From assembly GCA_007693785.1 (NCBI GenBank), contig RECY01000018.1, forward strand, positions 1-39,700: 39,700 nt of DNA. The letters run 5' to 3'. Source of the stretch: Phycisphaerales bacterium (GTDB lineage: Bacteria; Planctomycetota; Phycisphaerae; Phycisphaerales; UBA1924). The translations under genes were made by a program, and so were the position numbers. The first letter of the stretch is position 1, and every line of letters starts with the position of its first letter. Positions 5,875 through 37,012 of this stretch are shown here, piece after piece. The notes under the pieces were generated by a model. That model was not told the origin of the DNA, did not search any database, and saw nothing but the letters and a program-made list of their open reading frames with translations.

Positions 5875-7500
5875 TCAGCGTGGGGCGCGGGCGAGGCGGT
5901 GCCCCCAGACCGCTGTCAGCGTGACGGCCGCGAGGAGCAGCGCGCCCGTCGCCTGATGGCTGGTGGTGACGAGGGCTTCGAGGATGGGGACGGGCGGCGC
6001 GTCGGCGAGCATGTCGGCGGTGGGGATGGGGCCGCGGTCTTCGCGCATCGCGACGACGCCGAGCGTCGCCCACCCGAGGATGAACTGGATCGCGACAACG
6101 ATCATCGCGGTCATGCCGAAGCGGCGCAGCCAGCGCGCGGGAGCGGTGGGGGGCTGGCGGTCCTGCTCGTCACGCTTGGTGCCGGCCGCTCCGGCAATCC
6201 CGGCGAGGACGACCACGACGAACGCGAAGAGCACGTGGGACCAGAGGGCGTGGGACGCACCGAGGTGCCGGTAGGTCGCGCCGAAGATGAGCTGAATGAA
6301 AAGGCACGCGAGCGCGACGATCGCGAGCGTGCGCGCGCGTCGGGCGATGGTGCGTTGGCGATCGGTGATCGCTTCGTCGGTGCGGACGAAGGCGAGGCTG
6401 AGCATGGCGGCGACGGTGACGGCGAGGGCGAAGACCGTCTGCCCCCCGACGCCGTGGAGCAGGGCGTAGCCGAGGGCGTTCTCGGTGACGCGGACGCCGC
6501 CGGCGATGCCCTGGAGGGCGACGAGCACGCCGAGGGCCCCGGCGGCCTCGCCCGCGCGATCGCGGAGGAAGCTGACCACGAGCCACGCGGACGCGATGAG
6601 GGCGAGCGCGACGAGGATCGGAAAGAGCGCGCCCGCGGAGAGCGAGGCGCCAAGGTGAGCCGCGAGTGAGGCGAGCCCGATCGCGACGAGCACGACGACG
6701 CCGCCGATCGCGCGGATCCAGCCCTTGGGGCGGACGGCAAGGGTCGAGACGAAGAGCGTGAGCATCGCGAGCCCGACGAGCGAGCCGAAGAGGCGGTGGG
6801 TGTGCTCGAGGAAGATGCGCTGGTCGGCCATCAGGGCGATGGGGTAGAGGAACATGTTGGCGCCGTAGGTCCCGGGCCAGTCGGGGACGGCCATCCCGCT
6901 GTCGGTGCTCGTGACCAGCCCGCCGATGAGCAGCAGCGGGGCGACGGCGATCGCGGCGACGAGGGCGAGTCGCGCCAGCCAGCGGTCGTGCCGGCCTGTG
7001 GCGAGGGCGGGTGTGAGGGGCGAGGTGTCGCGACGGGTGCGGATCGAGCCGCCGACGGCGCCCGCGGCAGCCCCGATCGCGCCCGAAAGGGCGAGGAAGC
7101 CGAGTGCCGCCAGACCGGCGCCGGGGCGGAGGCGGCCGATGGCCTCGGCTTCGGCGAGCCCGCTCGGCTGTTCGGCGAGCTTGCTCCCCAGGATCAGGAG
7201 GTTGACCAAGGCCGCGACCAGCCCTGCGCCGATCCCGATCCGCCACCCGCGTTGGGCTCCGCACCCGCGGACACCCATCGCCAGCACCAGCGCGAGCGTG
7301 GCGAGCAGGATCGGCCCCGCGACGCTCGGCGCGAGGCGGACCGCGGGCAGATGGGTGATGAACCAGACCGCCCAGAGCGCGACGGCTCCGGCGAAGCCGT
7401 GTGCTAGCCACTGTCCAAATAAGGGGTTACGTGCGGCGTCCGACTCCGCGTGTTCGCGGGCGAGTGCGGATTGGCGGATTTGGGCGTCGGCTGTGGTCAT
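5875..7500 (-). CDS. ctaA: Heme A synthase (COX15/CtaA family) with an N-terminal membrane extension
   Basis: Oxidises the C8 methyl group of heme O to give heme A, the cofactor of the caa3 oxidase encoded nearby. The COX15/CtaA core runs from about residue 172 to 541 with the family motif GGLVTSTDSGMAVPDWPGTY (about 193-212), EHTHRLFGSLVG (His233 and His235), LLHGVGGQTVF and a final SHQATGALLL; these histidines are the expected heme ligands. About 170 residues before this core contain four further hydrophobic segments (roughly 33-51, 58-78, 88-106, 128-150). Many CtaA proteins are only 300-350 residues, so this extension is unusual; it does not resemble CtaB (no NxxxD prenyltransferase motif). 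ATG at 7500 has GGAGG 7 nt upstream. It is divergent from actA with a 351-nt spacer. Confidence 0.9.
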   Translation of the reverse strand: MTTADAQIRQSALAREHAESDAARNPLFGQWLAHGFAGAVALWAVWFITHLPAVRLAPSVAGPILLATLALVLAMGVRGCGAQRGWRIGIGAGLVAALVNLLILGSKLAEQPSGLAEAEAIGRLRPGAGLAALGFLALSGAIGAAAGAVGGSIRTRRDTSPLTPALATGRHDRWLARLALVAAIAVAPLLLIGGLVTSTDSGMAVPDWPGTYGANMFLYPIALMADQRIFLEHTHRLFGSLVGLAMLTLFVSTLAVRPKGWIRAIGGVVVLVAIGLASLAAHLGASLSAGALFPILVALALIASAWLVVSFLRDRAGEAAGALGVLVALQGIAGGVRVTENALGYALLHGVGGQTVFALAVTVAAMLSLAFVRTDEAITDRQRTIARRARTLAIVALACLFIQLIFGATYRHLGASHALWSHVLFAFVVVVLAGIAGAAGTKRDEQDRQPPTAPARWLRRFGMTAMIVVAIQFILGWATLGVVAMREDRGPIPTADMLADAPPVPILEALVTTSHQATGALLLAAVTLTAVWGHRLARAPR

Positions 7501-7536
7501 GGAACGGCCTCCGCGTCTTGGCCGCGCGAATCTGGA

Positions 7537-7546
7537 GTCAGACAGC
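7537..7546 (+). promoter_or_regulatory. GTCNGACAGC site, copy 1
   Basis: GTCAGACAGC. First of three near-identical decamers in the ctaA-actA divergent spacer, 36 nt upstream of the ctaA start codon. Confidence 0.4.
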
Positions 7547-7590
7547 CAGAATCAGACGGCGGTGCTTGCTGAGACTCAGTTTCGATTACG

Positions 7591-7602
7591 GTCTGACAGC
7601 AA
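7591..7602 (+). promoter_or_regulatory. GTCNGACAGC site, copy 2 (left arm of an inverted repeat)
   Basis: GTCTGACAGCAA pairs with TTGCTGTCCGAC at 7638-7649 (11 of 12 positions), arms separated by 35 nt. A TTGACG hexamer (7610-7615) lies between the arms. Confidence 0.45.
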
Positions 7603-7637
7603 ATGTCCCTTGACGGGGCGGGCCCGGGGCGGAGAAA

Positions 7638-7649
7638 TTGCTGTCCGAC
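7638..7649 (-). promoter_or_regulatory. GTCNGACAGC site, copy 3 (right arm, inverted)
   Basis: TTGCTGTCCGAC on the plus strand is GTCGGACAGCAA on the minus strand. The three copies differ only at the fourth base of the decamer, as expected of operator sites for one regulator. Confidence 0.45.
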
Positions 7650-7774
7650 AAGAACCGGCACGTCGGATCGTAGGTGTGTATGCTGCCGGCTCGCCGGGAA
7701 GCCGCGATTCAGCAGGTGCGGGTTCTTCGCCCGGGTGTTCTGATGGTTTCGGCAGTTTGGTGAGACGCGGAAAA

Positions 7775-7786
7775 AGGGGATCCCCT
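7775..7786. promoter_or_regulatory. 12-bp palindrome AGGGGATCCCCT before actA
   Basis: A perfect palindrome preceded by an A-rich run, 65 nt upstream of the actA start. The half-site GATCCCCTG recurs at 16683-16691 upstream of the caa3 cluster, so a shared site is possible but the match is short. Confidence 0.25.
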
Positions 7787-7851
7787 GTCGTCGGGTGCGG
7801 CTGCCGGTGGGTGGCGTGCGGGCCCGGCCTGGATCGAGGAGTGCTGTCCCG

Positions 7852-8544
7852 ATGTCGGCGATCTTCCCGAAATGGACCAACGCGGTGCCGACGATCGGCG
7901 CGATGGGCGCGCTCGGCGGCCTGCTGACCGTGGTGGTGGGCACGTGGTATTACGCGACGCCGGACTTCTGGGAAGTCGGGTACATGCCGACCCAGCCCGG
8001 CGAGGGCTTCAACCACCAACTGCACGCGGGGCGTCTGGGCATGGACTGCCGGTACTGCCACACGAACGTGGAAACCTCGCCCGAGGCGAACGTCCCGACG
8101 GTGAGCACGTGCATGGGTTGCCACACCGAGGGGATGCTCTCGGGGAGCGACGTCCACCGGGTGGGTTGGGTTCGTGAGGCGTACGCGGAGGACCGCTCGA
8201 TCCCGTGGCGCCGGATCCACAAATTGCCGGACTATGTGCGCAACTTCCCGCACCACGTGCACGTGCAGGCGGGTGTGAGCTGCTACTCGTGCCACGGCCA
8301 GATCGTGGGGATGCCGGTGGTGTTCCAGGCCGAGAGCCTGAGCATGGGCTGGTGTCTGGAGTGTCACCGCGAGCCGGAGAAGCACCTTGTGCCGCCGGAT
8401 CAGGTGACGAAGCTGGTGTGGGCGGAGCAGGAGTGGTTCGCGACGCCGGTGCATCAGCGTTCGTACGAGGGCGTGACGGCATCGGAGCTTCTTGAGAGTC
8501 TTCGTCAGGCGCCGCCGCAGAACTGTGCGGCTTGCCACCACTGA
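7852..8544 (+). CDS. actA: ACIII subunit ActA, pentaheme cytochrome c
   Basis: Membrane-anchored multiheme cytochrome c of alternative complex III, which passes electrons from quinol oxidation toward the terminal oxidase on the periplasmic side. The 230-residue protein has one N-terminal membrane segment (about 12-34) and five CxxCH heme sites: CRYCH 66-70, CMGCH 87-91, CYSCH 144-148, CLECH 168-172, and CAACH 225-229 at the extreme C-terminus. Additional His residues (FNHQLHAG, FPHHVHVQ) are candidate axial ligands. ATG at 7852 follows GAGGAG; in-frame codons back to 7795 have no such site. It is the first gene of the act operon, in canonical ABCDEF order. Heme attachment would depend on ResB/CcsA, encoded around 26.7-31.4 kb. 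Confidence 0.93.
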   Translation: MSAIFPKWTNAVPTIGAMGALGGLLTVVVGTWYYATPDFWEVGYMPTQPGEGFNHQLHAGRLGMDCRYCHTNVETSPEANVPTVSTCMGCHTEGMLSGSDVHRVGWVREAYAEDRSIPWRRIHKLPDYVRNFPHHVHVQAGVSCYSCHGQIVGMPVVFQAESLSMGWCLECHREPEKHLVPPDQVTKLVWAEQEWFATPVHQRSYEGVTASELLESLRQAPPQNCAACHH

Positions 8545-8645
8545 TCGCAGGCGGTGATCGCCTTGAGCGGCGTGTGTTCGTGCGGGTGTGTTGAGCGTAG
8601 GTGAAAGTCGCAGCGTTGAAGCTGCGAGTGAGGATCGCGACGACG

Positions 8646-12163
<3,518 letters not shown>

Positions 12164-12167
<4 letters not shown>

Positions 12168-13765
12168 GCGCGATCAACCCCGACGAACAGACCGCGCAGC
12201 AGCTCGCGGGGCTCCGCCCCGGGGCCGCCGACCGGTCGAAGCACGCGGACCTCGGCGACGGGACGCTGGTCGAGGCGCCGGGCGAGCGCGCGCCCCTGGT
12301 CCTGAACGACCGCTCGGCGCACGACGTGACGGAGATCGTCTGCGGGTACGCGGAGAACACGCCGCCCAAGTGGTGGCTCCCGGCGTTCCTGATCGCGGCG
12401 AGCTCGACGGGCCTGCTGGGCGTCGGCGTGCTCTACCTGATCATCACGGGCGTGGGTGTCTGGGGCCTGAACAACCAGGTCAACTGGGCGTGGGACATCA
12501 CGAACTTCGTGTTTTGGATCGGCATCGGGCACGCGGGGACGCTGATCTCCGCGATCCTGTGCTTGTTGAAGCAGAAGTGGCGCACGGCCGTCAACCGCTC
12601 GGCCGAGGCGATGACCATCTTCGCCGTGACCTGCGCCGGCATCTTCCCGGCGATCCACGTCGGGCGCATCTGGTTCATCTGGTTCGTCTTCCCGATCCCG
12701 AATTACAACTACATCTGGCCCAACTTCCAGTCGCCGCTGTTGTGGGACGTGTTCGCGGTGAGCACGTACGCGACGGTTTCGGGCCTGTTCTGGTACATGG
12801 GCATGATCCCGGACTTCGCGACGATGCGGGACCGGGCGATCCTTCGTCTGAACGCGTCGGCCTCGGCCGGCGAGAAGAAGAAGCTCCCGGACATTCTCCG
12901 GGCCTACATCTTCACGCTGCTGGCGCAGGGCTGGCGGATGTCGAGCCGCCACTGGCACCGGTACGAGATGGCGTACCTGCTGCTGGCGGGCCTGGCGACG
13001 CCGCTGGTGCTCAGCGTGCACTCGATCGTGTCGTTCGACTTCGCGACCTCGGTGGTGCCGGGCTGGCACACGACGATCTTCCCGCCCTACTTCGTCGCGG
13101 GTGCGATCTTCGGCGGGTTTGCGATGGTGCTGCTGCTGCTGATCCCGATCCGGGAGCTGTACGCGAACTTCAAGGACTTCCTGACGCTCCGTCACCTGGA
13201 GAACATGTCCAAGATCCTGCTCGCGACGGGCATGATGGTGGGCTTCGCGTACGCGATGGAGTTCTTCATCGCCTGGTACGGCGGCAACGAGTACGAGTGG
13301 TACGTCTTCATCAACAACCGGGCCAACCCGGCGATGGCGCCGTACTGGTGGGCCTATTGGGCGATGATCACGTGCAACGTGCTGAGCCCGCAGGTCTTCT
13401 GGTTCAAGAAGATGCGGACGAACCCGCTGGTGATCTGGCTGGTGGCGTTGTTCGTGACGATCGGGATGTGGTTCGAGCGGTTCGTGATCATCGTGACGAG
13501 CCTGCACCGGGCGTGGCTGCCGGCGACGTGGCACATGTTCTGGCCGACGTGGGTGGACATCGGGATCTTCGTGGGCTCGATCGGTTTGTTCCTGACGCTG
13601 TTCCTGCTGTTCCTGCGGTTCGTGCCGGTGTTCCCGATCGCGGAGTTGAAGGCCGTCCTGCCCGAGGCCGACCCGCACCGCGGGCACGGGGACCACGACG
13701 AGCCGGGCGCGGACGTCCACGGCGGCGGGCACGGCGAGCTGTCGGCCCCGAAGGGAGCGCACTGA
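12164..13765 (+). CDS. actC: ACIII subunit ActC, NrfD/PsrC-like quinol-binding membrane protein
   Basis: A 533-residue integral membrane protein of the NrfD/PsrC family with about ten hydrophobic helices, expected to contain the menaquinol oxidation site and possible proton paths. A hydrophilic N-terminal tail (about 65 residues) precedes the first helix; helices begin with [20 protein letters not shown]. Family-typical stretches are [60 protein letters not shown] and [15 protein letters not shown]. The C-terminus is His/Asp-rich ([19 protein letters not shown]). Translation is probably coupled to actB through the 4-nt overlap, and GGAG lies 7 nt before the start. Length and gene order match ActC. 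Confidence 0.94.
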
Positions 13766-13766
13766 T

Positions 13767-14378
13767 ATGTCGATCGTCAGCGGCATCGCGGACTACTTCC
13801 CGTTCGTCGTGCGCAAGCCCCCGGCCCGTTTCCGGACCGAGGACGACCGCCCCGTGCACGGGATCATGGCTGAGTACGACTCGGCGGCCGACGTCTACCA
13901 CGCCGCGGAGCAGGTCCGCGACGCGGGGTACACCAAGTGGGACGTCTACACGCCCTACCCGATCCACGGCATGGAGCACGCGATGGGCGTCAAGCGGACG
14001 TTCCTCCCGCTCGTGGTCGCCGGCGGCGGGTTCACGGGCGTGGGGCTCGGCTTCCTGATGCAGTGGTGGATCTCGGGCGTGGACTACCCGCTCATGAAGC
14101 AGGGCAAGCCCTACGCCGCGTGGGAGCCGTTCGTCATGGTCAGCTTCGAGCTGGGCATCCTCTTCGCCGCGTTCACGGCCTTGTTCGGGATGCTCGCGCT
14201 CAACGGGCTGCCCCGCTGGCACCACCCGCTGATGCTGAAAGAGCGGTTCTTGCGCGCCAGCGACGACCGCTTCATCATCGTGATCGAGGCCGAGGATAAG
14301 AAGTTTGATCCCGACGCGACCGTGAAGCTGCTGGAAGACGCGGGCTCGTCGCGCGTCGATCTCGTGGAGGACGAGTGA
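13767..14378 (+). CDS. actD: ACIII subunit ActD (DUF3341)
   Basis: A 203-residue DUF3341 protein, the ActD subunit. A soluble N-terminal domain contains the conserved KWDVYTPYPIHGMEHAM segment (about 57-73), followed by two membrane helices (about 79-101 and 121-146) and a short soluble C-terminus with HHPLMLKERFLRASDDRF. ActD has no known cofactor and packs against the ActC/ActF membrane core. It starts 1 nt after the actC stop codon with GGGAG 9 nt upstream, firmly inside the operon. Confidence 0.92.
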   Translation: MSIVSGIADYFPFVVRKPPARFRTEDDRPVHGIMAEYDSAADVYHAAEQVRDAGYTKWDVYTPYPIHGMEHAMGVKRTFLPLVVAGGGFTGVGLGFLMQWWISGVDYPLMKQGKPYAAWEPFVMVSFELGILFAAFTALFGMLALNGLPRWHHPLMLKERFLRASDDRFIIVIEAEDKKFDPDATVKLLEDAGSSRVDLVEDE

Positions 14379-14482
14379 CCCGTCGCGCCCTTGATCGACG
14401 CTCGTTCACCGCTGCCGCTCCGCGGCCCGTGCCCCTTGATTCTGTGCCACCCCAGTCCCGACCAGTTGAAGGCGACCGACCA

Positions 14483-15325
14483 GTGAACCGCACCTCAACG
14501 CACACGCCTGGATCCCGACCCGCGACGCTGTGCCTGGCGCTCGCGGGCGGCGCGCTCCTGCTCGGCCTGTCGGCCGGTTGCCGGGGCGACCGCTCGGACA
14601 ACCCCCCGCGTCAGTTCTTCCCCGACATGGACGACCAGGCTCGCTGGCAGTCGCAGGGGGAGAGCCGCTTCTTCGCCGACGGGCGGACGATGCGCCTGCC
14701 GCCGGACGGCACGGTGCCCTTCGGCGCCTGGCCGCTGCTGGACGACGAGGCGGGCCTCGGCGAGGCGGTCGCGCGTCGCGCGAGCTATCTGAAGGAGGAC
14801 CGCGGGTTTTACGAGGGCCAGAACCCGGACGGCTCGCCGGTCGACGTCATGCCGGCGAGCGTGACACGTGCGATGCTGGAGCGCGGGGCCGAGCGATTCA
14901 ACATTTTCTGCGCGGTCTGCCACGGGTATGAGGGCGACGGACAGGGCGTGGTCGGGTCGCTGTGGTCCTACCCGGTGCCGTCGGTCCACCTGGAGCAGTA
15001 CCAGCCCGGTGGCGAGCTCGGCCAGGACGGGCATCTTTACCGCGTCGCGATGTGGGGCGTGGTGGGCCCGGACGGGCGCCGGGCGATGCCCGGGTACGCG
15101 CACGCGTTGAGCGAGGAGGACGGGTGGGCGGTCGTCGCCTATGTCCGCGCGCTGCAGGCGAGCCGCCAGGGGGACATCAACGACCCCGGGATCCCGGAAA
15201 ACGTGCGTCGGAACCTGCGTCAGCAGCGTGCCGCCGCCCCGGCTCCCGCGCCGACGCCCGATGACGACGCGAACGGCGAAAACGGCGAGAACCCGTCCGC
15301 CCCGATGAACGGAGGCGCCCAGTGA
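14483..15325 (+). CDS. actE: ACIII subunit ActE, monoheme cytochrome c lipoprotein
   Basis: A 280-residue periplasmic lipoprotein cytochrome c. The signal peptide ends in the lipobox LSAGC (Cys33). One heme site, CAVCH, lies at 143-147, and RAMPGYAHAL (Met202) is the probable sixth ligand. ActE is the likely electron exit from ACIII to the CoxII cytochrome domain. GTG at 14483 is chosen because GAAGG precedes it by 10 nt and it directly leads into the signal peptide. The frame is open from a GTG at 14375 overlapping the actD stop, which would add 36 residues unlike a signal. The C-terminal tail is low-complexity (Ala/Pro then Asn/Gly/Glu). The stop overlaps the actF GTG by 4 nt. Confidence 0.92.
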   Translation: MNRTSTHTPGSRPATLCLALAGGALLLGLSAGCRGDRSDNPPRQFFPDMDDQARWQSQGESRFFADGRTMRLPPDGTVPFGAWPLLDDEAGLGEAVARRASYLKEDRGFYEGQNPDGSPVDVMPASVTRAMLERGAERFNIFCAVCHGYEGDGQGVVGSLWSYPVPSVHLEQYQPGGELGQDGHLYRVAMWGVVGPDGRRAMPGYAHALSEEDGWAVVAYVRALQASRQGDINDPGIPENVRRNLRQQRAAAPAPAPTPDDDANGENGENPSAPMNGGAQ

Positions 15326-16638
15326 GCCAGATGACGGCGGACCAGTACCGGGCCCACCTCGAGCGAACGCGTCGCCACCCGGCGCTCGCGGCGGACAACA
15401 TCCACCTGCCGGCCGGGAGCGGGACCAAGCTCAGCGCGCTCTGCTTCGGCGTCGCGCTCGCGGGGCTGGCCCTGACGCTGCTCGGGGCGGTGGTGGTGAA
15501 CGTCAAGCACGCCCTGGCGGCGTACCAGGTCGGGGTCATGAGCGTGCTCGCGATCGCCCTAGGCTCGCTGTTCATGATCATGATCTTCAATCTCGTCAAC
15601 GCCGGCTGGCACGGGACCGTCAAACGCCAGTGGGAGCACCTGTTCAGCATGCTCCCGCTGTGCGTCCTGCTGGTCTTCCCGGTGCTGGCGATCGAGGTGA
15701 TCCGGGCCGTCGTCGCGGGCGACTCTGGTCGCGACGGGTTCCTGCTGTTCGAGTGGCTCAACCCCGCGATCTCGGGCACGTTTCTGATCGAGCACAAGGC
15801 GGGGTTCCTCAACGCGCCGTTCTGGCTGCTCCGGTTCGTGCTCTACGCCGCGATCTGGATCTTTCTCGCCCAGCGTCTCTACAGCCTGAGCAAGCAGCAG
15901 GACCTCACCGGCGACCGCTGGCTCAGCCAGAAGGCGCGCTTCATGAGCGGGTGGGGGACGCTGGTGCTCGCGCTCACCAGCTCCTTCGCGGCCTTCGACT
16001 GGATGATGTCGATGGACTACCGCTTCTTCAGCACCATGTGGGGCGTCTACTACTTCGCCGCCAGCGCCGGCGCGAGTGTCGCGACGCTGGTCATCGTTCT
16101 GGCGATCCTCCGCGGCATGGGACGGCTGACCGGCGCCGTCACGGATGAGCACTTCCGCGACCTGGGCAAGTTCCTCTTCGCGTTCAGCGTCTTCTGGGCG
16201 TATATCGGCTTCAGCCAGTACTTCCTGATCTGGTACGCGAACATCCCGGAAGAGACCGCCTATTACCTCCGTCGCATGACCGGCGGGTGGGAGGCGCTGA
16301 GCTTCTTCCTGATCGCCGGGCACTTCGTGGTGCCGTTCGTCCTGCTGCTGTTCAAGCCGGTCAAGCACTCGACGCTGGGCCTGGCGCTGGTCGCGGGCTG
16401 GCTGCTGGTCATGCACGTGCTGGACATGTTCTGGATCATCCGCCCGATGGTCTACGTTCAGGATTGGGCGAGCCTGAACCCCGGGCCGACCGGGTGGTGG
16501 GTGGACGTCGCCGCGATCGTCGGCGTCTTCGCCCTCTTTGCCGGGGTGCTGATCCGCAAGATCGCCTCGGGCCCTCTCGTCGCGGCCAACGACCCCTACC
16601 TCCACGAATCCCTCAAGCACAAGAACTACGTCGGGTGA
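15322..16638 (+). CDS. actF: ACIII subunit ActF, second NrfD-like quinone-binding membrane protein
   Basis: A 438-residue polytopic membrane protein, the second PsrC/NrfD-like subunit of ACIII, paired with ActC. About ten hydrophobic helices are visible, including LCFGVALAGLALTLLGAVVV, the FAAFDWMMSMDYRFFSTMW segment typical of ActF, FSVFWAYIGFSQYFLIWYAN and FVVPFVLLLFKP. The start is GTG at 15322, preceded by GGAGG 6 nt upstream and overlapping the actE stop. An ATG three codons later is a weaker alternative. It is the last gene of the act operon; a 220-nt spacer separates it from the caa3 cluster. Confidence 0.92.
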   Translation: MSQMTADQYRAHLERTRRHPALAADNIHLPAGSGTKLSALCFGVALAGLALTLLGAVVVNVKHALAAYQVGVMSVLAIALGSLFMIMIFNLVNAGWHGTVKRQWEHLFSMLPLCVLLVFPVLAIEVIRAVVAGDSGRDGFLLFEWLNPAISGTFLIEHKAGFLNAPFWLLRFVLYAAIWIFLAQRLYSLSKQQDLTGDRWLSQKARFMSGWGTLVLALTSSFAAFDWMMSMDYRFFSTMWGVYYFAASAGASVATLVIVLAILRGMGRLTGAVTDEHFRDLGKFLFAFSVFWAYIGFSQYFLIWYANIPEETAYYLRRMTGGWEALSFFLIAGHFVVPFVLLLFKPVKHSTLGLALVAGWLLVMHVLDMFWIIRPMVYVQDWASLNPGPTGWWVDVAAIVGVFALFAGVLIRKIASGPLVAANDPYLHESLKHKNYVG

Positions 16639-16858
16639 CGCCCCGGCGATTTTGAGACGATATCATCCGCAATTGGGCGGCTGATCCCCTGAACGGAGCC
16701 CGATCTTTCCTGCATTTCCTCCGACGCCCCGCATCGGCTCTAGGATCTTGACGAACCGTTGTGTGCCGTTGGGCCGGAATGTTTCTTGTCAGGCAGTATC
16801 GATTGGCTGAGTTTCGGACGATGGAGACCGGGCGTAGTGCCCGTGGGTGAGGCCCTTG
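16639..16858 (+). promoter_or_regulatory. Spacer before the caa3 cluster
   Basis: 220 nt without a gene. It holds CTAGGATCTT (16740-16749), sharing ten bases with the sequence before resB; TTGACG (16748-16753); and a direct TTTCCT-GCA-TTTCCT (16706-16720). This suggests the oxidase cluster has its own promoter in addition to read-through from act. No hairpin terminator is evident after actF. Confidence 0.4.
16741..16746 (+). promoter_or_regulatory. Candidate -10 box (TAGGAT) of the caa3 cluster
   Basis: TAGGAT in GCTCTAGGATCTTGAC, about 112 nt before the first gene of the cluster. One of five intergenic copies of the hexamer. No confident -35. Confidence 0.35.
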
Positions 16859-17251
16859 ATGAGTCAGGAACTAGACCACACGCCGACGCCACCGCCCGAG
16901 CATCTGGACGATTGGCACCAGCACACCTCCGCGGAGGGAATGCCGCAGGCCGAGCACGCGGCATCGGTCAACATCGCGGTGCTGGGCTTCGTCGGCGTGG
17001 TGATCGTGGGGGTGGTGGTCGCGCTGGTGATCTTGGTGGTGATCTACTTCCAGGCGTACAGCTCGACGCTCACGGCGCAGAAGGCGGAGAACACCGTCTG
17101 GTACCAGAGCGAGTACCGCCCGTACGAGGCCGGCTCGATGCGTCGCCTCCGCGAGTACGGGTGGCAGGACCAGACCGACGGCGTCGTTCGCGTGCCCATC
17201 GACCGCGCCAAGGCCCGCGTGATCGAGTCGTATCAGAACACCCGGCGATAA
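16859..17251 (+). CDS. Small single-helix membrane protein of the ACIII-caa3 cluster
   Basis: A 130-residue protein with a soluble N-terminus, one long hydrophobic helix (about residues 38-65, NIAVLGFVGVVIVGVVVALV) and a C-terminal domain containing LREYGWQD and VRVPIDRAKARVIES. Proteins with this layout, a YGW followed by a VPIDRA-like motif, recur between actF and the cox genes in ACIII-containing bacteria. It could be an accessory subunit of ACIII or the oxidase, or an assembly factor; I assign no name. ATG at 16859 has GTGAGG 6 nt upstream. It has no Cys or heme motif. SCO1 follows after 35 nt. Confidence 0.8.
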   Translation: MSQELDHTPTPPPEHLDDWHQHTSAEGMPQAEHAASVNIAVLGFVGVVIVGVVVALVILVVIYFQAYSSTLTAQKAENTVWYQSEYRPYEAGSMRRLREYGWQDQTDGVVRVPIDRAKARVIESYQNTRR

Positions 17252-17286
17252 AGCCGGTTTACGAGACGGAAAGAAAGGCGGAAGGC

Positions 17287-18291
17287 GTGCCCAGCCCGAG
17301 GACCGAGAACCAGACGACCACAACCGACCGCGGGCCCGCGCCCGCGCGTCGCGGGTGTGGCGCGGGCGCTCGGGCGTGGGTGGGCGCGTGCGTCGCGTGG
17401 TGCCTGCTCGCGATGCCGTCGGGGTTCGCAGTGGGGGGCATGGACGACGGGCTGGAGCCCGAGGAGCCGGCCCTCTCCCCGGCGGTCGAGGCGATGCTTG
17501 AGCGGATCCGTCCCGAGACGGACAACCGCCCGCTCGAGGCCCAGGGGCTCGAGGTGGAGGAGCGGACGGGCGAGCGTGTGCCGGGCGAGCTGGTGCTGAC
17601 CAACAGCCGCGGGCGCGCGGTGACGCTGGGAAGCTACTTCAACGACGACGGGCGACCGATCATCCTCGCGATGGTGTATTACGACTGCCCGGTGGCGTGC
17701 ACGGCCGTGCTCGACCGCATGTGCGCGAGCCTGGCGCGCCTGAACTACGAGCCCGGCACGGATTATCAGATCGTGGCGGTCAGCTTCGACCACACCGAGA
17801 AGTCGAGCGACGCGGCGATCAAGAAGGAGCTGGCGCTGGCGGCTCTGGACAAGCCCCTGACCCCGGAGGTCCGCGCGGGCGTCGCGTTTCATACGACCGA
17901 CGCCGCGACGGCCCGGATGCTGTCGGACGCGACGGGTTTCCCCTACCGCCTGCTCCCGAACGGGGAGTACAGCCACCCGATCGCGGTGATGATCCTGACG
18001 CCGGACGGAACGATCAGCCGCTACATCCACGGCTTCGACTACCCCCCGCGCCGCGTGCGTCTCGCGTTGCTGGAGGCCTCGGAAGGGCGGATCGGCTCGT
18101 CGATCGGCGACATGTTTCTGGCGATGTGTTTTTTGTACGACCCGCGGAGCGGCGCGTACACGCTTCAGGCGTTCCGCATCATGCAGGGCGGTGCGATCCT
18201 GAGCGCGTTGGCGATGGTGGCGTTGATCCTCACCCTCCGGATCCGAGAGACGATGCGTCGGAAGCAGTCGTTGACCCCTGCCGCCGCGTGA
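17287..18291 (+). CDS. SCO1/SenC/PrrC family copper chaperone
   Basis: A 334-residue membrane-anchored thioredoxin-fold protein that delivers copper to, or reduces, the CuA site of cytochrome oxidase. An N-terminal hydrophobic segment (about 29-51) leads into the SCO domain. The metal site is CPVAC (Cys134, Cys138) with His230 in the motif EYSHPIAV, the expected Cys-Cys-His set. A second hydrophobic helix near the C-terminus (QGGAILSALAMVALILTLR) is an addition compared with the roughly 200-residue classical SCO1. Start GTG at 17287 follows a purine-rich stretch ending GGAAGGC. It sits directly before coxII, whose CuA site it should serve. Confidence 0.9.
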   Translation: MPSPRTENQTTTTDRGPAPARRGCGAGARAWVGACVAWCLLAMPSGFAVGGMDDGLEPEEPALSPAVEAMLERIRPETDNRPLEAQGLEVEERTGERVPGELVLTNSRGRAVTLGSYFNDDGRPIILAMVYYDCPVACTAVLDRMCASLARLNYEPGTDYQIVAVSFDHTEKSSDAAIKKELALAALDKPLTPEVRAGVAFHTTDAATARMLSDATGFPYRLLPNGEYSHPIAVMILTPDGTISRYIHGFDYPPRRVRLALLEASEGRIGSSIGDMFLAMCFLYDPRSGAYTLQAFRIMQGGAILSALAMVALILTLRIRETMRRKQSLTPAAA

Positions 18292-18330: not shown

Positions 18331-19614
18331 ATGGACACGACCATGACCACCCTCGCAGACGGCTTCTGGCACTGGCTCTGGTTCGGCGAGCAGGCCGCAA
18401 CGGACACGGCGCGTTCGACCGACGGGTTGTTCATGTGGATCTTCTGGTTCAGCGCGTTCTGGTTCGTGCTGCTGATGGCGTTCATGGTCTTCTGCGTGGT
18501 GGTGTACCGTCGTCGCCCGGGTCAGCCGACGCCGCGATCGAGCAGCCACAACACGCCGCTGGAGATCGCGTGGACGGTGATCCCGAGTCTCGGGTTGGTG
18601 TACATCTTCTTCGCGGGCTTCCAGGGGTACATGAACAAGGTGGTCGCCGAGGGCCCGGCGATGGAGTACAGCCTCGAGGCGTACACGTGGGGCTGGGACC
18701 TGACCTACCCCAACGGGATCCAGAGCGCCGAGGCGACGCGGATCCTGGACGTGAGCCAGCGTCGGGCGGCGATCCCGATGCCGGGCGACACGCCGACGGT
18801 CGATCTCGAAGCGGGCGGGCCGTCCGCGACGAGCATGGAGTACCCGATTTTCTACGTGCCCGAGGATCAGCCGATCCGCCTGCGGATGACCAGCCGCGAC
18901 GTGATCCACAGCTTCTGGGTGCCGGACTTCCGCGTGAAGTTCGACGTGTTCCCGAACCGGTACACGAGCTACTGGTTCCGGACCGATCGCCTGAGCCAGA
19001 ACGACCCGGTGCTGCCGGAGACCAACGGGCAGCGGTACCGCGACCACATCATTTACTGCGCCGAATATTGCGGCGATTTCCACTCGGAGATGCTGGCGAT
19101 CCTGCGCGTGGTGAGCCGCCAGTATTACGCGGAGTGGGTGCAGTCCGGCGGCATCGACGAGGAGAACACGCCGCTGCCGGAGCTCGGGCAGATCATCTCA
19201 CGCCGCAGCGGGTGCTTCGCGTGCCACTCGGTGGACGGCAGCCGCAACACCGGCCCGACCTGGCAGAACGCCTACGGCTACGACGTGCAGCTCACCACCG
19301 GTGAGAGCGTGCCCTACGACGCGAACTACATCCGCCGCTCGATCGTCGAGCCCGCGGCCGAGATCCACGCGGGCTACCCGAACCAGATGCCCTCCTACGC
19401 CGGCGTCTTCAGCGAGCGCCAGATGAACGGCATCATCGCCTATATCCAGTCCCTCTCCGATCGCGGCCCGGTCGACCCGTTCGCCAACGGCGCCGAAACG
19501 GAAGCAGACGGGCCCGATGCCGACGCGGAAGGCACCGAACCCGAGACTGAACCTGAGACTGAACCCGATACCAACAACGACGCGAACAACGCCGAAAACA
19601 ACCCGGCGAACTGA
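18331..19614 (+). CDS. ctaC: Cytochrome c oxidase subunit II with fused cytochrome c (caa3 type)
   Basis: A 427-residue subunit II. Two membrane helices (about 34-57 and 78-100) are followed by the cupredoxin domain with His193 (DVIHSFWVPDF) and the CuA loop CAEYCGDFHSEM (Cys243, Cys247, His251, Met254), all ligands intact. A C-terminal cytochrome c domain carries CFACH (295-299) with Met353 (NQMPSYAG) as sixth ligand, making this a caa3 oxidase that can take electrons directly from ACIII. The tail is acidic with a short Glu-Pro-Glu-Thr repeat followed by an Asn-rich end. ATG at 18331 is used; an in-frame ATG at 18343 is possible. Confidence 0.95.
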   Translation: MDTTMTTLADGFWHWLWFGEQAATDTARSTDGLFMWIFWFSAFWFVLLMAFMVFCVVVYRRRPGQPTPRSSSHNTPLEIAWTVIPSLGLVYIFFAGFQGYMNKVVAEGPAMEYSLEAYTWGWDLTYPNGIQSAEATRILDVSQRRAAIPMPGDTPTVDLEAGGPSATSMEYPIFYVPEDQPIRLRMTSRDVIHSFWVPDFRVKFDVFPNRYTSYWFRTDRLSQNDPVLPETNGQRYRDHIIYCAEYCGDFHSEMLAILRVVSRQYYAEWVQSGGIDEENTPLPELGQIISRRSGCFACHSVDGSRNTGPTWQNAYGYDVQLTTGESVPYDANYIRRSIVEPAAEIHAGYPNQMPSYAGVFSERQMNGIIAYIQSLSDRGPVDPFANGAETEADGPDADAEGTEPETEPETEPDTNNDANNAENNPAN

Positions 19615-19644
19615 CCCCAGACCGCAGAGCCCCGAGGGCAACCC

Positions 19645-21429
19645 ATGAGCACGATTGATCAGCACAGCCAGATGCCGAGCCACGATCCGCACGGGCACGC
19701 CGGGCACCACGAAGGGTCCTACCTGACCCCCGTCGGCGGCTTCTGGGCCACCGTCTGGGACTGGTGCACCACCGTCGACCACAAGAAGATCGGGGTGATG
19801 TACCTCTTCGCCATCCTCTTCATGTTCTTCCTCGGCGGCGTCGCGGCCCTGCTCGTCCGCATGGAGCTGCTCGAGCCCGTTCGCGTCCTCAGCGACGGCT
19901 CGGTCGTCGGGCAGTTCACCCGCGCCCTCTTCGATGCCGACGGCACCGTCGCCGATCACAACAACTACTACAACCGCGCGTTCACGCTCCACGGCGCGAT
20001 CATGACCTTCATGGTCATCGTGCCGTCGATCCCCGCCAGCCTCGGCAACTTCTTCCTCCCCATCATGCTCGGGGCCAAGGACGTCGCCTTCCCCCGCCTG
20101 AACCTGCTCTCCTGGTACATCTACGTCTTCGGCAGCGTCTTCGCGGTCGCCTCCATCCTCGGCGGCGGCGTCGACACCGGCTGGACCTTCTACACCCCTT
20201 ATTCCACAACCACCGACGCCGATCACTGGCGCGTCGTCTTCATGATCATCGGCGTCTTTATCCTCGGCTTCAGCTCCATCCTCACGGGCCTCAACTTCAT
20301 CGTCACCGTCCACAAGCTCCGAGCCCCCGGCATGGGCTGGTTCGACATGCCCCTGTTCGTCTGGGCGCTCTACAGCTCCGCAATCATCCAGGTCCTCGCG
20401 ACGCCGGTCATCGGCATCACGATGATGCTGCTCATCGCCGAACGCGTCTTCAAGGTCGGCATCTTCGACCCCGTCCTCGGCGGCGACCCCGTCCTCTACC
20501 AGCACTTCTTCTGGTTCTACTCCCACCCCGTGGTCTACATCATGATCCTGCCCGGCATGGGCGTGATCAGCGACATGATCGCCGTCCACAGCCACAAGCA
20601 CATCTTCGGCTACCGCGCGATCGCCTTCGCCTCGCTCGGCATCACCGCGGTCAGCTTCCTGGTCTGGGGGCACCACATGTTCACCAGCTCCGGCGAGCTG
20701 GCGGCCGCGATCTTCAGCGCTCTCACCTTCCTCGTCGCCATCCCGACCGCGATCAAGGTCTTCAACTGGATCGCGACGCTCTACAAGGGCAACATCAGCC
20801 TCAACACCCCGATGCTTTACACGCTGAGCTTCCTGTTCCTGTTCTCCATCGGCGGGCTCACCGGGCTCCCTCTGGGCGCGCTCGCGACCGACCTCCACCT
20901 GCACGACTCCTACTTCGTCGTCGCCCACTTCCACTACGTCATGATGGGCGGCACGATCATCGCCTTTGTCGGTGCCATCCACCACTGGTGGCCCAAGATG
21001 TTCGGGCGCATGTACAACGAGGCCGGCGGCATCCTCGGGTGCATCCTCGTCTTCATCGGCTTCAACATGACCTTCTTCACCCAGTTCATCCTCGGCACCC
21101 GCGGGATGCCCCGCCGCTACGCGACCTACCTCACCGAGTACCAGGACCTGCACGTCATCTCGACCGTCGGCTCCTGGGTCCTCGCCCTGGGCTTCCTGGT
21201 TCACCTGCTGGTGTTCGCGCACTCGCTGGTCGCCGGGCGCAAGGCGCCGCCGAACCCGTGGGGCGGGATCAGCCTGGAGTGGGAAGTCGAGAGCCCGCCC
21301 CCGTTGCACAACTTCCACCATGAGCCGATCGTCAAGCACGGGCCGTACGACTTCGAGCACGTCGTCCCGCCGCACTGCGACCCGGCCGAGTACCCCGTCC
21401 ACGAGCGCGACCCGAACCGGGCGCACTGA
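19645..21429 (+). CDS. ctaD: Cytochrome c oxidase subunit I, A2-type
   Basis: Catalytic heme-copper subunit of 594 residues, reducing O2 to water with proton pumping. Visible ligands are His116 (FTLHGAIM, low-spin heme a), His294 with Tyr298 in YSHPVVYIM (CuB and the cross-linked Tyr), His343-His344 (WGHHMF, CuB), and His428/His430 ([11 protein letters not shown]). The D-channel Asp is kept (Asp146, [11 protein letters not shown]) and so is the K-channel Lys (Lys371, PTAIKVFNW). In place of the Glu of A1 oxidases (HPEVY) there is a Tyr-Ser pair just before HPVVY, the mark of A2-type oxidases. GAGG precedes ATG 19645 by about 7 nt. Confidence 0.96.
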
Positions 21430-21480
21430 CCGATCCGCCCGCCCGAAGAGACCACTAGATTCACGTAGGGGAAGCACGAC

Positions 21481-22173
21481 ATGGCCTCGATCCACACCGG
21501 CGAGCCGGCCAAGCCCGACCTCGCCCAAGCCCCGCGATGGCAGACCTACCGCCACGGGCACCACTGGCGGAACGCGGACGACGAGTTCGACGCGGCCAAG
21601 ATGGGCATGTGGCTCTTCCTGACCACCGAGGTCCTGCTCTTTGCCGGGCTCTTCGTCGCCTACGCCGTCTTCCGCATGAAGTATCCGGAAGCCTTCGTCG
21701 CCGGCTCGCACCACCTGAGCGTGAAGTGGGGGTTCATCAACACGGTGATCCTTCTGCTCTCCAGCTTCACCGTCGCCTACTCCATCCGCTGCGCTCAGCT
21801 CAACAAGCAGGGCCTGCTTAAGCTCAACCTGCTCATCACCATCGCCTGCGGCTTCGCCTTCCTGTTCATCAAGGGCACCTTCGAGTACTACCCCAAGATC
21901 ATGGAGGGCAAGGGCCCGGGCTGGTTCTTCAGCTATGCCTACGCCGAGAGCCCGTGGGAGCCGATCTGGTGGGGCCTCTATTACTGCGCCACCGGCGTCC
22001 ACGCTTTGCACGTCATCATCGGCATGGGCCTGCTCTTCTGGGTTTACCTCGGTGCCCGCAAAAAGAAGTACGGCCCGACGCACTACACCGGCGTCGAGAT
22101 CACGGGCCTCTACTGGCACCTTGTCGACCTCATCTGGATCTTCCTCTTCCCACTCCTCTACCTCATCCACTGA
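21481..22173 (+). CDS. ctaE: Cytochrome c oxidase subunit III
   Basis: A 230-residue subunit III with five hydrophobic helices, the short form common to caa3 oxidases that lack the first two helices of mitochondrial CoxIII. Characteristic stretches are AKMGMWLFLTTEVLLFAGLF, INTVILLLSSFTVAYSI, FIKGTFEYYPKI, YYCATGVHALHVIIGMGLL and the C-terminal LYWHLVDLIWIFLFPLLYL. It stabilises subunit I and its proton uptake. ATG at 21481 has GGGGAAG upstream. It follows coxI by 51 nt. Confidence 0.95.
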   Translation: MASIHTGEPAKPDLAQAPRWQTYRHGHHWRNADDEFDAAKMGMWLFLTTEVLLFAGLFVAYAVFRMKYPEAFVAGSHHLSVKWGFINTVILLLSSFTVAYSIRCAQLNKQGLLKLNLLITIACGFAFLFIKGTFEYYPKIMEGKGPGWFFSYAYAESPWEPIWWGLYYCATGVHALHVIIGMGLLFWVYLGARKKKYGPTHYTGVEITGLYWHLVDLIWIFLFPLLYLIH

Positions 22174-22193
22174 CCGACCCGGCCCCCAGGTGG

Positions 22194-22212
22194 CACGGCT
22201 CTCCGAGCCGTG
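22194..22212 (+). repeat. CACGGCT-CTCCG-AGCCGTG hairpin element
   Basis: A perfect 7-bp inverted repeat with a 5-nt loop, between coxIII and coxIV in an otherwise co-directional operon. It could act as an RNA processing or stability hairpin, and looks like a short palindromic element of the kind that can be repeated across a genome. The sequence feels familiar from planctomycete intergenic regions, but I cannot verify that here. A T-tract is absent. Confidence 0.5.
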
Positions 22213-22284
22213 TTCGCCCCGCTCCGACCTGAACCGACCGAGAAGCCGACCCGAAGCGACCCCAACCCACACGGGACCTCAGCC

Positions 22285-22923
22285 ATGAACGAGCCGCGCC
22301 AACCCGCACTGAACGACCTCGACCCGCACGGGTTTCACGAGGGCGATCACGACCACGGGCACGTCATCCTGCCGTTCCGCACGCTCGTGGTGGTGCTCGC
22401 GGCTCTGCTCTTCTTCACCGTCCTGACCGTCAGCGCCGGCTCGGCGGAGGTCTGGATCAGCGAGAAGTTCGACGTTGTCATCCCGACGTGGGTCAACGTC
22501 ATGGTCGCGATGAGCATCGCCAGCATCAAGGGCATGCTCGTGCTCATGTACTTCATGCAGCTCAAGTACGACAAGCCGATCAACACCATGATCTTCCTGT
22601 TCTGCCTCTTCGCGTTCGCCCTCTTCATGGGCCTGACCACGATCGACCTGGGCAACCGCGACCGGATCTACGCGTGGAAGGCGCCCGCCATCATCGAGGG
22701 CGGCAACAGCGTCGGGCTCGCGACCGAGGCCGCTCCGCACAACTTCCCCTCCGGGCAGTCGATCGCGACGTGGGCCCGCGAGCGTGAGATCGCGACGATC
22801 GGGCCAGAGAAATTTGCCGAGAAGGTCGAAGCCATGAAGACCCGGGAAACCTCCAGCAGCGAGATATCCCGCCCGGCCCGCGGGCGCACGCCCGGCCTTT
22901 TTGACGCCGACACCACCGACTGA
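22285..22923 (+). CDS. Cytochrome c oxidase subunit IV (prokaryotic type) with C-terminal extension
   Basis: A 212-residue protein. The first ~125 residues match the prokaryotic COX4 (CtaF-like) family: a His-rich soluble start (GFHEGDHDHGHVILP) and three membrane helices (about 30-53, 72-96 and 100-122), with the family's SIKGMLVLMYFMQLKYD between helices. Usual members end near here at about 110 residues. This one continues with about 90 hydrophilic residues, including the segment ATWAREREIATIGPEKFAEK, presumably exposed to one side of the membrane. Position after coxI and coxIII fits. ATG at 22285 is chosen because it begins the family domain; upstream in-frame sequence to 22210 overlaps the hairpin. 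Confidence 0.87.
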   Translation: MNEPRQPALNDLDPHGFHEGDHDHGHVILPFRTLVVVLAALLFFTVLTVSAGSAEVWISEKFDVVIPTWVNVMVAMSIASIKGMLVLMYFMQLKYDKPINTMIFLFCLFAFALFMGLTTIDLGNRDRIYAWKAPAIIEGGNSVGLATEAAPHNFPSGQSIATWAREREIATIGPEKFAEKVEAMKTRETSSSEISRPARGRTPGLFDADTTD

Positions 22924-26058: not shown

Positions 26059-26715
26059 TCACACGCCGCCCGCGCTCTCCCTCGCCCGGTCCCGCACGCT
26101 CACGTGCGGGCTGGCCGTGACGTACCAACGCAGCGGCGCGCTCGCCCAAGCCCCGGCGTAATCCACCCCGATCCGCGTTGTGTTGGTCACGCTCAACGGC
26201 GCCTCGCCCGCTTCCACCCACAGGTCCCCGCGTACGCAGAGGTCGATCGCGTTGAGCGCCCGGTCGATCCCCATCGCCTGACACAACTTCGCCGGCCCGG
26301 AGCACAGGTCGCGATCCCGAAGCACCCGCCCCGGGCGCTTCGTCCCCGCGAGCCGGCGGGCGTGCATCGCGGCGACACCCTCGGTCGGCTCGAGCGCCCG
26401 GATCAGCACAGCCGCCGGGTAGCCCGCCCGCTCGCACACGATGTTGAAGCAGTGGTGCATCCCGTAAGTCAGAAAGACGTAGCTCGTCCCGGGCTCGCAG
26501 AACATCGGCTCGGTGCGTGGCGTGCGTCGCCACCCCTTGCTGTGGGCCGCCGCGTCTTCTGGCCCGAGGTACGCCTCGGTCTCCACGATCCGCCCCGCGA
26601 GGCGCTCGCCGCCCTCGCCCGTGCGCACGAGCACGCACCCGAGCAACTGCTGCGCGAGCGCGCCTGCGTCGGTCGCGAAGAACGCACGCCCCAGCCTCTC
26701 CGGGTGTCGGCTCAC
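26059..26715 (-). CDS. 3-methyladenine DNA glycosylase (AAG/MPG family)
   Basis: A 218-residue base-excision repair enzyme that flips out and removes alkylated or deaminated purines. It aligns well with human AAG: GRIVETEAYLGPEDAAAHS holds the catalytic Glu (Glu47) and the intercalating Tyr (Tyr49), followed by MFCEPGTSYVFLTYGMHHCF, AAVLIRALEPTEGV and GPAKLCQAMGIDRALNA. The length is typical of the bacterial family. The GTG start at 26715 overlaps the ccsA stop (GTGA) and has no Shine-Dalgarno, so translation is probably coupled to ccsA. A repair enzyme trailing a cytochrome c maturation gene is odd and may be a chance arrangement. Confidence 0.92.
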   Translation of the reverse strand: MSRHPERLGRAFFATDAGALAQQLLGCVLVRTGEGGERLAGRIVETEAYLGPEDAAAHSKGWRRTPRTEPMFCEPGTSYVFLTYGMHHCFNIVCERAGYPAAVLIRALEPTEGVAAMHARRLAGTKRPGRVLRDRDLCSGPAKLCQAMGIDRALNAIDLCVRGDLWVEAGEAPLSVTNTTRIGVDYAGAWASAPLRWYVTASPHVSVRDRARESAGGV

Positions 26716-28619: not shown

Positions 28620-28676
28620 GGTCTCTTCTTTCCGTGCCACCCGGCGGCGTGCGCACGGGCGGGCGACGCGTCGTGC

Positions 28677-31438: not shown

Positions 31439-31476
31439 ATTCCTGCAAAACAAGACCTATTCCCGTAAAACAGGAC
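31439..31476 (+). repeat. Tandem 18-bp direct repeat upstream of resB
   Basis: ATTCCTGCAAAACAAGAC (31439-31456) and ATTCCCGTAAAACAGGAC (31459-31476) agree at 15 of 18 positions, all three differences being transitions, with a 20-nt period. The A-rich core stands out from the GC-rich surroundings. Confidence 0.6.
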
Positions 31477-36282: not shown

Positions 36283-36573
36283 TCACGGTCGTGGCTCGTG
36301 AGCTGTCTCGCTCGCCGGTTTCCCCGGCTTCATCTCTACGCTCGCCGGCTCATCGCCGTAGGTGTCGATGATCTGGTGCTCGATCGCCTCCACGAGGGCC
36401 TCGCGTTCGGCTTCTGGGACGAGCATGAGGGCGGCGACCCATCGGCGGCCCAGTTCGAGCTGCCCGGGGCGGAGCAGGTCAGTCAGCAGGCGGAGGTGGT
36501 CGCCGGGCGACAACCCTGGCGATCCGGTCGATCCGCCCTCGGGCCGCCACATCGCTTTGGACCGCTCGCCCAT
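36283..36573 (-). CDS. Hypothetical 96-residue protein overlapping the HTH regulator gene
   Basis: A small soluble protein with predicted helices (HLRLLTDLLRPGQLELGRRW, then AEREALVEAIEHQIIDTYG) that I do not recognise. Its start lies inside the preceding regulator gene, in another frame, with a 95-nt overlap. GGGGAG sits 4 nt before the ATG at 36573, which makes the overlap credible rather than a shadow frame. A later in-frame ATG at 36552 would shorten the overlap. Its partner is probably the regulator upstream, as with many two-gene regulatory pairs; this is inferred only from the overlap. Confidence 0.65.
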   Translation of the reverse strand: MGERSKAMWRPEGGSTGSPGLSPGDHLRLLTDLLRPGQLELGRRWVAALMLVPEAEREALVEAIEHQIIDTYGDEPASVEMKPGKPASETAHEPRP

Positions 36574-37006: not shown

Positions 37007-37012
37007 GGGCAC

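Follow-up and report, generated by a model that had tools for sequence, protein, structure and literature searches.

Heme A synthase (ctaA) and the alternative complex III operon that begins with actA are transcribed divergently in this bacterium, and the region between them raises the question of whether a single regulator could coordinate both and, if so, through which DNA element. The initial annotation of the window, that is, of the whole 39,700-nucleotide stretch analysed in the present study, had answered that one regulator could do so through three copies of a ten-base pattern, GTCNGACAGC, in this control region. The features discussed below are collected in Table 1; the nearest named relatives of the genome are mostly Phycisphaerales and other Planctomycetota.

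Table 1. Genes, palindromes and candidate promoter elements of the window
Feature	Position	Strand	Remarks
ctaA, heme A synthase	5875-7500	-	Pfam COX15-CtaA, 32.2 bits (cut-off 29.9)
First copy of the 10-mer, GTCAGACAGC	7537-7546	+	17-mer 7532-7548 scores 4.96; unsupported as part of the element
Fur-like 7-1-7 box, TGAGACTCAGTTTCG	7570-7584		2 mismatches to TGAGACTnAGTCTCA; 68 bp before P2
P1, 17-bp palindrome, TTACGGTCTGACAGCAA	7586-7602		Matrix score 22.9; 2 mismatches to a perfect palindrome; holds the second 10-mer copy
TTGACG, possible act -35	7610-7615	+	28 bp before P2; by eye
GAAATT, weak candidate act -10	7634-7639	+	18 bp after TTGACG, overlaps P2; by eye, missed by the promoter scan
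P2, 17-bp palindrome, TTGCTGTCCGACAAGAA	7638-7654		Matrix score 20.4; 52 bp after P1; holds the third 10-mer copy
TATGCT, alternative candidate act -10	7679-7684	+	24 bp after P2; by eye
actA, multiheme cytochrome c of alternative complex III	7852-8544	+	Pfam Cytochrome_C7
Remaining alternative complex III operon	8601-16638	+	Fe-S protein, NrfD, ActD, cytochrome c, one ORF without Pfam hit
Weak palindrome of the cox tandem, GTGCCGTTGGGCCGGAA	16763-16779		Score 10.4
Palindrome before the cox operon, TTCTTGTCAGGCAGTAT	16783-16799		Score 16.8; 20 bp from the 16763 site; outside the training set
cox operon (subunits II, I, III, IV)	18331-22923	+	Pfam COX2, COX1, COX3, COX4_pro
ccsBA, cytochrome c assembly	26712-31352	-	ResB/CcsB-like gene and CcsA
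CcsA	26712-28640	-	Cytochrom_C_asm, 114.9 bits
ResB/CcsB-like gene	28677-31352	-	ResB, 21.6 bits (under the cut-off of 24.6)
Palindrome before ccsBA, TTCCTGCAAAACAAGAC	31440-31456		Score 15.2; outside the training set
Palindrome before ccsBA, TTCCCGTAAAACAGGAC	31460-31476		Score 14.7; 20 bp from the 31440 site; outside the training set
XRE/cI-like helix-turn-helix protein	36479-37012	-	HTH_31 and HTH_3 just under cut-offs

A conserved palindrome between ctaA and actA

The three copies of GTCNGACAGC were found where the initial annotation had placed them, the second as GTCTGACAGC (7591-7600, plus strand) and the third as GTCGGACAGC (7640-7649, minus strand), and the inverted repeat that it had described was confirmed at 11 of 12 positions (arms 7591-7602 and 7638-7649), with TTGACG lying between the arms by eye. 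A fourth copy is located on the minus strand at 17919-17928, inside the open reading frame (ORF) 16759-18291. The assertion that three copies in so short a span are very unlikely by chance did not hold up, as the pattern was chosen after the sequence had been seen and similar clusters occurred in simulated windows. One-wildcard 10-mers present three times within 113 bp numbered 10 in the window and 0-8 in 12 first-order Markov simulations, where the counts include both strands and shifted forms. Shuffling for the fixed pattern gave 0.78 expected occurrences of GTCNGACAGC in the window vs. 4 seen, and 29 copies were counted genome-wide (3.06 Mb) vs. 33 for the reversed control. The literal 10-mer was consequently rejected as the unit, and its core TGTCNGACA was also rejected (18 vs. 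19 in the control). Thus, the original statistics fail to carry the claim, because simulated windows and genome counts match the 10-mer, and support for the place comes from a larger unit that is conserved.

This unit is an odd-centred 17-bp palindrome with the consensus TTnCKGYC-n-GRCMGnAA (8-1-8), and the 10-mer corresponds to its core and one half. The perfect palindrome, TTGCTGTCAGACAGCAA, was observed in relative L041, and close forms were observed in others. Two facing palindromes, P1 and P2, have the copies at 7591 and 7640, respectively, as their strong halves, which explains the inverted repeat; these two copies are therefore retained as parts of the conserved element, and no support was found for GTCNGACAGC itself as the unit or for the copy at 7537 as part of it.

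The actA gene was detected in 56 of 61 genomes, and 30 loci were taken for the palindrome search, in 29 of which ctaA is divergent from actA, the thirtieth lying near a contig end. A symmetric weight matrix was trained on the 29 ctaA/actA regions; 26 of them contain a site scoring above 11, and no site above 7 was present in the remaining three (L038, L042 and L044). The held-out set was drawn from 80 named actA loci, of which 31 without a detected divergent ctaA were dropped (L108, L109 and L137 are cut by a contig end); removal of 9 training duplicates from the other 49 left 40 loci. A site above 11 was observed in 37 of these 40 and a site above 13 in 31, compared with 6 and 4 sites, respectively, among 134,925 positions of coding DNA from the held-out loci. 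The true matrix returned 39 sites above 13, and 200 column-permuted matrices returned a mean of 0.98; the best of the latter reached 31 and is probably a permutation close to the original. Spacing was also conserved: of 69 loci, 22 have sites separated by 51-52 bp and 7 have sites separated by 20 bp, and every other spacing occurred at most twice. Being unconserved in relatives and common elsewhere, which the initial annotation had named as counting against the sites, describes the literal 10-mer and not the palindrome.

Extra palindromes 19-20 bp apart were seen between ctaA and actA in L043, L056, L058, L141, L142 and L150, and those of L056, L058, L142 and L150 lie on the ctaA side, as if a second controlled ctaA promoter were present. 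Upstream of actA in 16 loci from three further families within the order (f2, f5 and f6), neither a ctaA gene within approximately 1 kb nor a pair at 20 or 52 bp was found; five of the 16 contain a palindrome scoring above 8, including one of 14.8 in L321 that lies far upstream. The layout thus appears to be limited to one Phycisphaerales family.

Recurrence before ctaB, cox and ccsBA

A search for the element upstream of other respiratory genes, as the initial annotation had proposed, was rewarding for the palindrome, which some of the relatives also have before ctaB, cox and ccsBA. The ctaB, ccsB and act-cox tests were all scored with the ctaA/actA matrix. In the window, six sites score above 9.5, and all of them are paired (7586/7638, 16763/16783 and 31440/31460), whereas no pair was obtained in 40 simulated windows.

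First, in the 500 bp upstream of ctaB, a site above 13 was observed in 12 of 30 loci (11 of 30 when the last 20 coding bases are excluded), a count that includes G010 and G022, the loci that first drew attention to ctaB; among 66,218 coding positions, none scored above 13 and one above 11. Tandems at 20 bp with both members above 7 were present in 7 of the 30, including the weak one of the source genome (10.2 and 12.7), and approximately 60% of the 30 stretches lack a site above 11. Second, in the 400 bp upstream of ccsB, 8 of 24 loci contain a site above 13 and 9 a site above 11, one of them being this window, vs. none above 10 among 87,269 coding positions; 6 of 30 loci had been left out of this set, the match being absent or starting after residue 30. 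The ccsB positives all fall among the 18 loci of the palindrome family, with none of 6 in other families; four loci have 20-bp tandems, and 15 of the 24 lack a site above 11. Third, in the act-cox gap of 20 relatives, a site of approximately 11 or more follows actF in five (L265, L270, L271, L273 and L278), two of them as 20-bp tandems, and most of these gaps are without a site above 11. The site of L280 seemingly lies within the next small ORF, those of L283 and L284 lie shortly before coxB, and L265, L274 and L279 also have a site elsewhere in the 7.5-kb stretch.

A pattern search of 120 genomes yielded 29 loci that were read, comprising 14 ctaA/actA loci, 4 ctaB loci (L072, L074, L082 and L083) and 11 elsewhere, mostly inside ORFs; where ctaB begins is not certain, and the sites of L082 and L083 lie within its predicted N-terminal portion. 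The palindrome with Y/R freedom returned 38 sites in 35 of the 120 genomes vs. 32 for the control, and a large regulon is therefore not indicated at Y/R stringency. The tight palindrome returned 19 sites in 163 genomes vs. 3 for the control. Of these 19, 11 belong to ctaA/actA, including one from a contig that is cut; 3 belong to ctaB, 1 precedes a ResB-like gene (L262, without a Pfam hit and likened to P0004 by eye) and 4 lie elsewhere, namely inside ORFs in L068 and L085 and between genes without a respiratory link in L086 and L094.

Thus, one operator-like palindrome is found before several unlinked operons of one pathway (ctaA/actA, ctaB, cox and ccsBA), and shared control is well founded because the conserved ctaA/ACIII element recurs before the other three. 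The idea of one regulator for ctaA and ACIII is in this way retained and widened, with the palindrome in place of GTCNGACAGC as its basis. The alternative that the repeats are a chance similarity and mean nothing would agree with the unenriched 10-mer, whose clustering is matched by some simulated windows; nevertheless, it is contradicted by the held-out ctaA/actA test, by the retention of palindrome and spacing across many genera although the surrounding spacer diverges, and by the recurrence before unlinked genes of the same pathway, and we regard it as highly improbable.

A Fur-like box beside the first palindrome

Immediately before P1 lies a second element, a 7-1-7 box resembling TGAGACTnAGTCTCA. 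With up to 4 mismatches, TGAGACTnAGTCTCA was observed at -72 to -62 from P2 in 41 of 59 loci, and -68 was the commonest offset. Exact copies were present in 45 of 120 genomes, and the reversed control was present in none. At 30 TGAGACTnAGTCTCA loci, whose gene contents were assigned by eye and borne out by Pfam at the four that were compared with it, the genes were FeoA/FeoB-like (feoAB) in 3, heme-oxygenase-like in 9, ctaA/actA in 4, cysteine desulfurase-like in 1 and PhnD-like in 1, and 12 were without a clear iron link. Because it is found elsewhere before feoAB and heme oxygenase genes, we take TGAGACTnAGTCTCA, from its gene content, to be a Fur (iron) box. FUR proteins were detected in 37 of 37 genomes, with one to four in each and three in the source genome. 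The box shares the 7-1-7 shape of Fur boxes and a position before iron and heme genes. In Fur boxes of the Escherichia coli type the inner letters are AAT/ATT, unlike the ACT/AGT of TGAGACTnAGTCTCA.

In the source genome, boxes with up to 2 mismatches numbered 6 vs. 4 for the control, hardly more, and the case for the copy in the window therefore rests on its conserved position. Two Fur-like matches with up to 3 mismatches were found upstream of actA in the 16 loci of f2, f5 and f6. The initial annotation had listed neither this box (7570-7584) nor the operators at 16763-16799 and 31440-31476.

Boxes of the TGAGACTnAGTCTCA type are located in the source genome at C13:40707, C13:143912, C27:18301 and C43:48794 and in the relatives at L181-L210; TGAGACTnAGTCTCA is a strong motif of the family, and the Fur-like regulon to which it points would lend itself to mapping. 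Fur-like boxes are adjoined by genes for secreted-looking proteins that share a DRWxYPF motif in L192, L204 and L208 and in L176 of the source genome (C13:143912); the gene is divergent from a pilin-like gene in L192 and L204, and in L094 such a DRWxYPF/pilin-like pair has the 17-bp palindrome in place of the Fur-like box. A gene for a PhnD-like binding protein follows a Fur-like box in the source genome (L177, C27:18301) and in relative L184, and this protein may serve iron rather than phosphonate uptake.

Promoter geometry and the mode of regulation

A consensus promoter scan of 7400-7900 found no promoter, and the candidate hexamers of Table 1 were read by eye. Layout was counted over 64 loci, 5 of the 69 without an anchor site being excluded. 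Of the 64, 33 have TTGACA at 28 or 27 bp before P2, a number that becomes 34 when the range of positions is widened slightly, and 17 have TAnnnT at 21-23 bp after P2. The two never occur in the same locus, and this mutual exclusion suggests that the act promoter exists in two alternative forms. The act promoter looks as if it had shifted by approximately 45 bp between lineages. A reversed TAnnnT, read as the -10 of ctaA, occurs 16-18 bp before P2 in 36 of the 64 loci and is absent by eye from this usual place in the window. At ctaB, ccsBA and cox, TAnnnT was binned relative to the first palindrome in the 36 stretches with a site above 9, and it was found in 8 and 10 loci in the two 9-bp bins that span -15 to +2, compared with 0-5 in the other bins. 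Sigma-54 and ECF promoters were set aside from the letters, because TAnnnT hexamers recur at fixed places.

A repressor is favoured over an activator, because an operator that covers or follows the start is in keeping with repression, and from these positions a repressor is judged the more probable of the two. A palindrome P2 lying over a -35 would fit either mode alike. An activator would use the same operators and regulon, with P2 standing in for the ctaA -35 and, in some relatives, also for that of actA, and would touch RNA polymerase from this position. This reading gains from the reversed TAnnnT that 36 of 64 loci have 16-18 bp before P2 and that by eye is without a visible TTGACA-like -35, and from the TAnnnT 21-23 bp after P2 in 17 of 64. 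It is opposed by the clustering of -10-like hexamers just before or at the first palindrome of ctaB, ccsBA and cox and by the TTGACA that is placed so that P2 covers the act start in 34 of 64 ctaA/act loci, and we consider it an unlikely, if serious, alternative to repression.

Candidate regulators

Among the genes that recur in at least three loci around ctaB, ccsB and ctaA/act, none looked regulator-like by eye from its first residues, and an autoregulated HTH gene was likewise not observed. The form of the sites offers other leads. The operators of phage lambda are odd-centred, 17 bp long and in tandem, and the 434 repressor family binds tandem palindromes; a form of the XRE/cI type was found here, with 8-1-8 palindromes and 20-bp tandems. 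The XRE/cI-like protein of the window could therefore be considered as the regulator: similar to the operators, it is present in 29 of 37 genomes of the family and in 0 of 24 of other families, and it has a weak match to the 434 repressor (E 0.0069). Against this, G006 (97% complete) yielded no match although its sites at ctaA/act, ctaB and ccsB are strong; the gene is present in G013 and G036, yet these have no site at ctaA/act; it does not adjoin regulon genes; and, except for one at a start codon, no operator above 9 lies within 500 bp before its start in 30 loci (L335-L364). The protein stays a weak lead, and its identity with the regulator is considered quite improbable.

A second FUR-family protein might instead bind the palindrome, read as the 7-1-7 form TGCTGTC-n-GACAGCA. 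The three FUR proteins of the source genome, the one to four in each of the 37 searched genomes and the 7-1-7 form of FUR boxes are in line with this; however, FUR proteins are equally present in families without the operators, and the conserved outer TT/AA reaches beyond 7-1-7, which leaves this candidate improbable, if marginally less so than the XRE/cI-like protein. FNR/CRP-type sites have an even-centred palindrome, such as TTGAT-N4-ATCAA, and were ruled out, the present palindrome being odd-centred (8-1-8). We assign the regulator to none of these families.

Discussion

The conservation of the palindrome, its spacing, the set of genes that it precedes and the positions of -10-like hexamers were observed directly; dimer binding, repression and the identity of Fur are inferred. 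Herein, we propose, as a reading that is on balance probable, that the palindromes are operators of one dimeric and likely repressing regulator of a heme A and respiratory-chain regulon, with Fur acting in addition at ctaA/act. First, one dimeric regulator, for which oxygen, heme, redox state and copper are candidate signals, would coordinate ctaA, ctaB, alternative complex III, the aa3-type oxidase operon and ccsBA. Each operator would be an 8-1-8 palindrome, with tandems 20 bp apart (approximately two helical turns), and the ctaA/actA pair, 51-52 bp apart (approximately five turns), would bracket overlapping divergent promoters. Second, the probable starts of act and ctaA would be covered by P2 and P1, respectively, resulting in repression; the palindromes of ctaB, ccsBA and cox, many of which coincide with a -10-like TAnnnT or follow it closely, would also serve repression. 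Third, a Fur-type protein would bind the 7-1-7 box just before P1, adding iron control at ctaA/act.

Joint control of such genes has precedents. In Bacillus subtilis, the targets of ResDE include ctaA and resABC, whose products act in cytochrome c assembly, and ResD is an OmpR-type response regulator and an activator. The proposed regulon is similar in placing ctaA and cytochrome c assembly genes under shared control, a likeness of target genes and not of sites. In Corynebacterium glutamicum, HrrA of the heme-responsive HrrSA system is reported to govern ctaA, ctaB and the bc1-aa3 genes and to activate almost all of these respiratory components; a palindromic motif was deduced, most binding sites lie near start sites, and more than 180 novel targets were described (PMC7337898). 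The target logic is the same, with one regulator over ctaA, ctaB and respiratory complexes; unlike HrrSA, the present system has ACIII instead of bc1 and a small gene set, and the two are likened by targets and not by motif letters. In Staphylococcus aureus, the Fur-linked small RNA IsrR is reported to tie iron limitation to lower ctaA/ctaB expression and respiration (PMC12607789). Unlike this small-RNA route, the Fur-like box of the present study lies within the promoter region itself.

Among the papers listed by a literature search, judged by their titles and the beginnings of their abstracts, none dealt with bacterial control of alternative complex III. Among the matches listed for planctomycete or Phycisphaerae motifs and regulons, none resembled a motif for this group, and among those listed for the half-site letters, all were unrelated by title. 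The 8-1-8 code in two-turn tandems and five-turn pairs is unlike the oxygen, heme and redox regulators familiar to us, and it was matched to no known operator.

Thus, the place singled out by the initial annotation is real and more interesting than the repeat first noted there, namely a small respiratory regulon that is probably iron-linked at one promoter. With this regulon come a concrete operator, a defined group of genes and a connection to iron. The shared operators suggest that the supply of heme A is coupled to the complexes that use it, which C. glutamicum achieves by other means. More tentatively, with a likelihood that we place slightly short of even, one planctomycete family may possess a regulator, not described so far, that is dedicated to aerobic respiration and uses a DNA code of its own. 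Acting with Fur at one divergent promoter, this regulator would raise and lower heme A, alternative complex III, the aa3-type oxidase and cytochrome c assembly jointly with iron.
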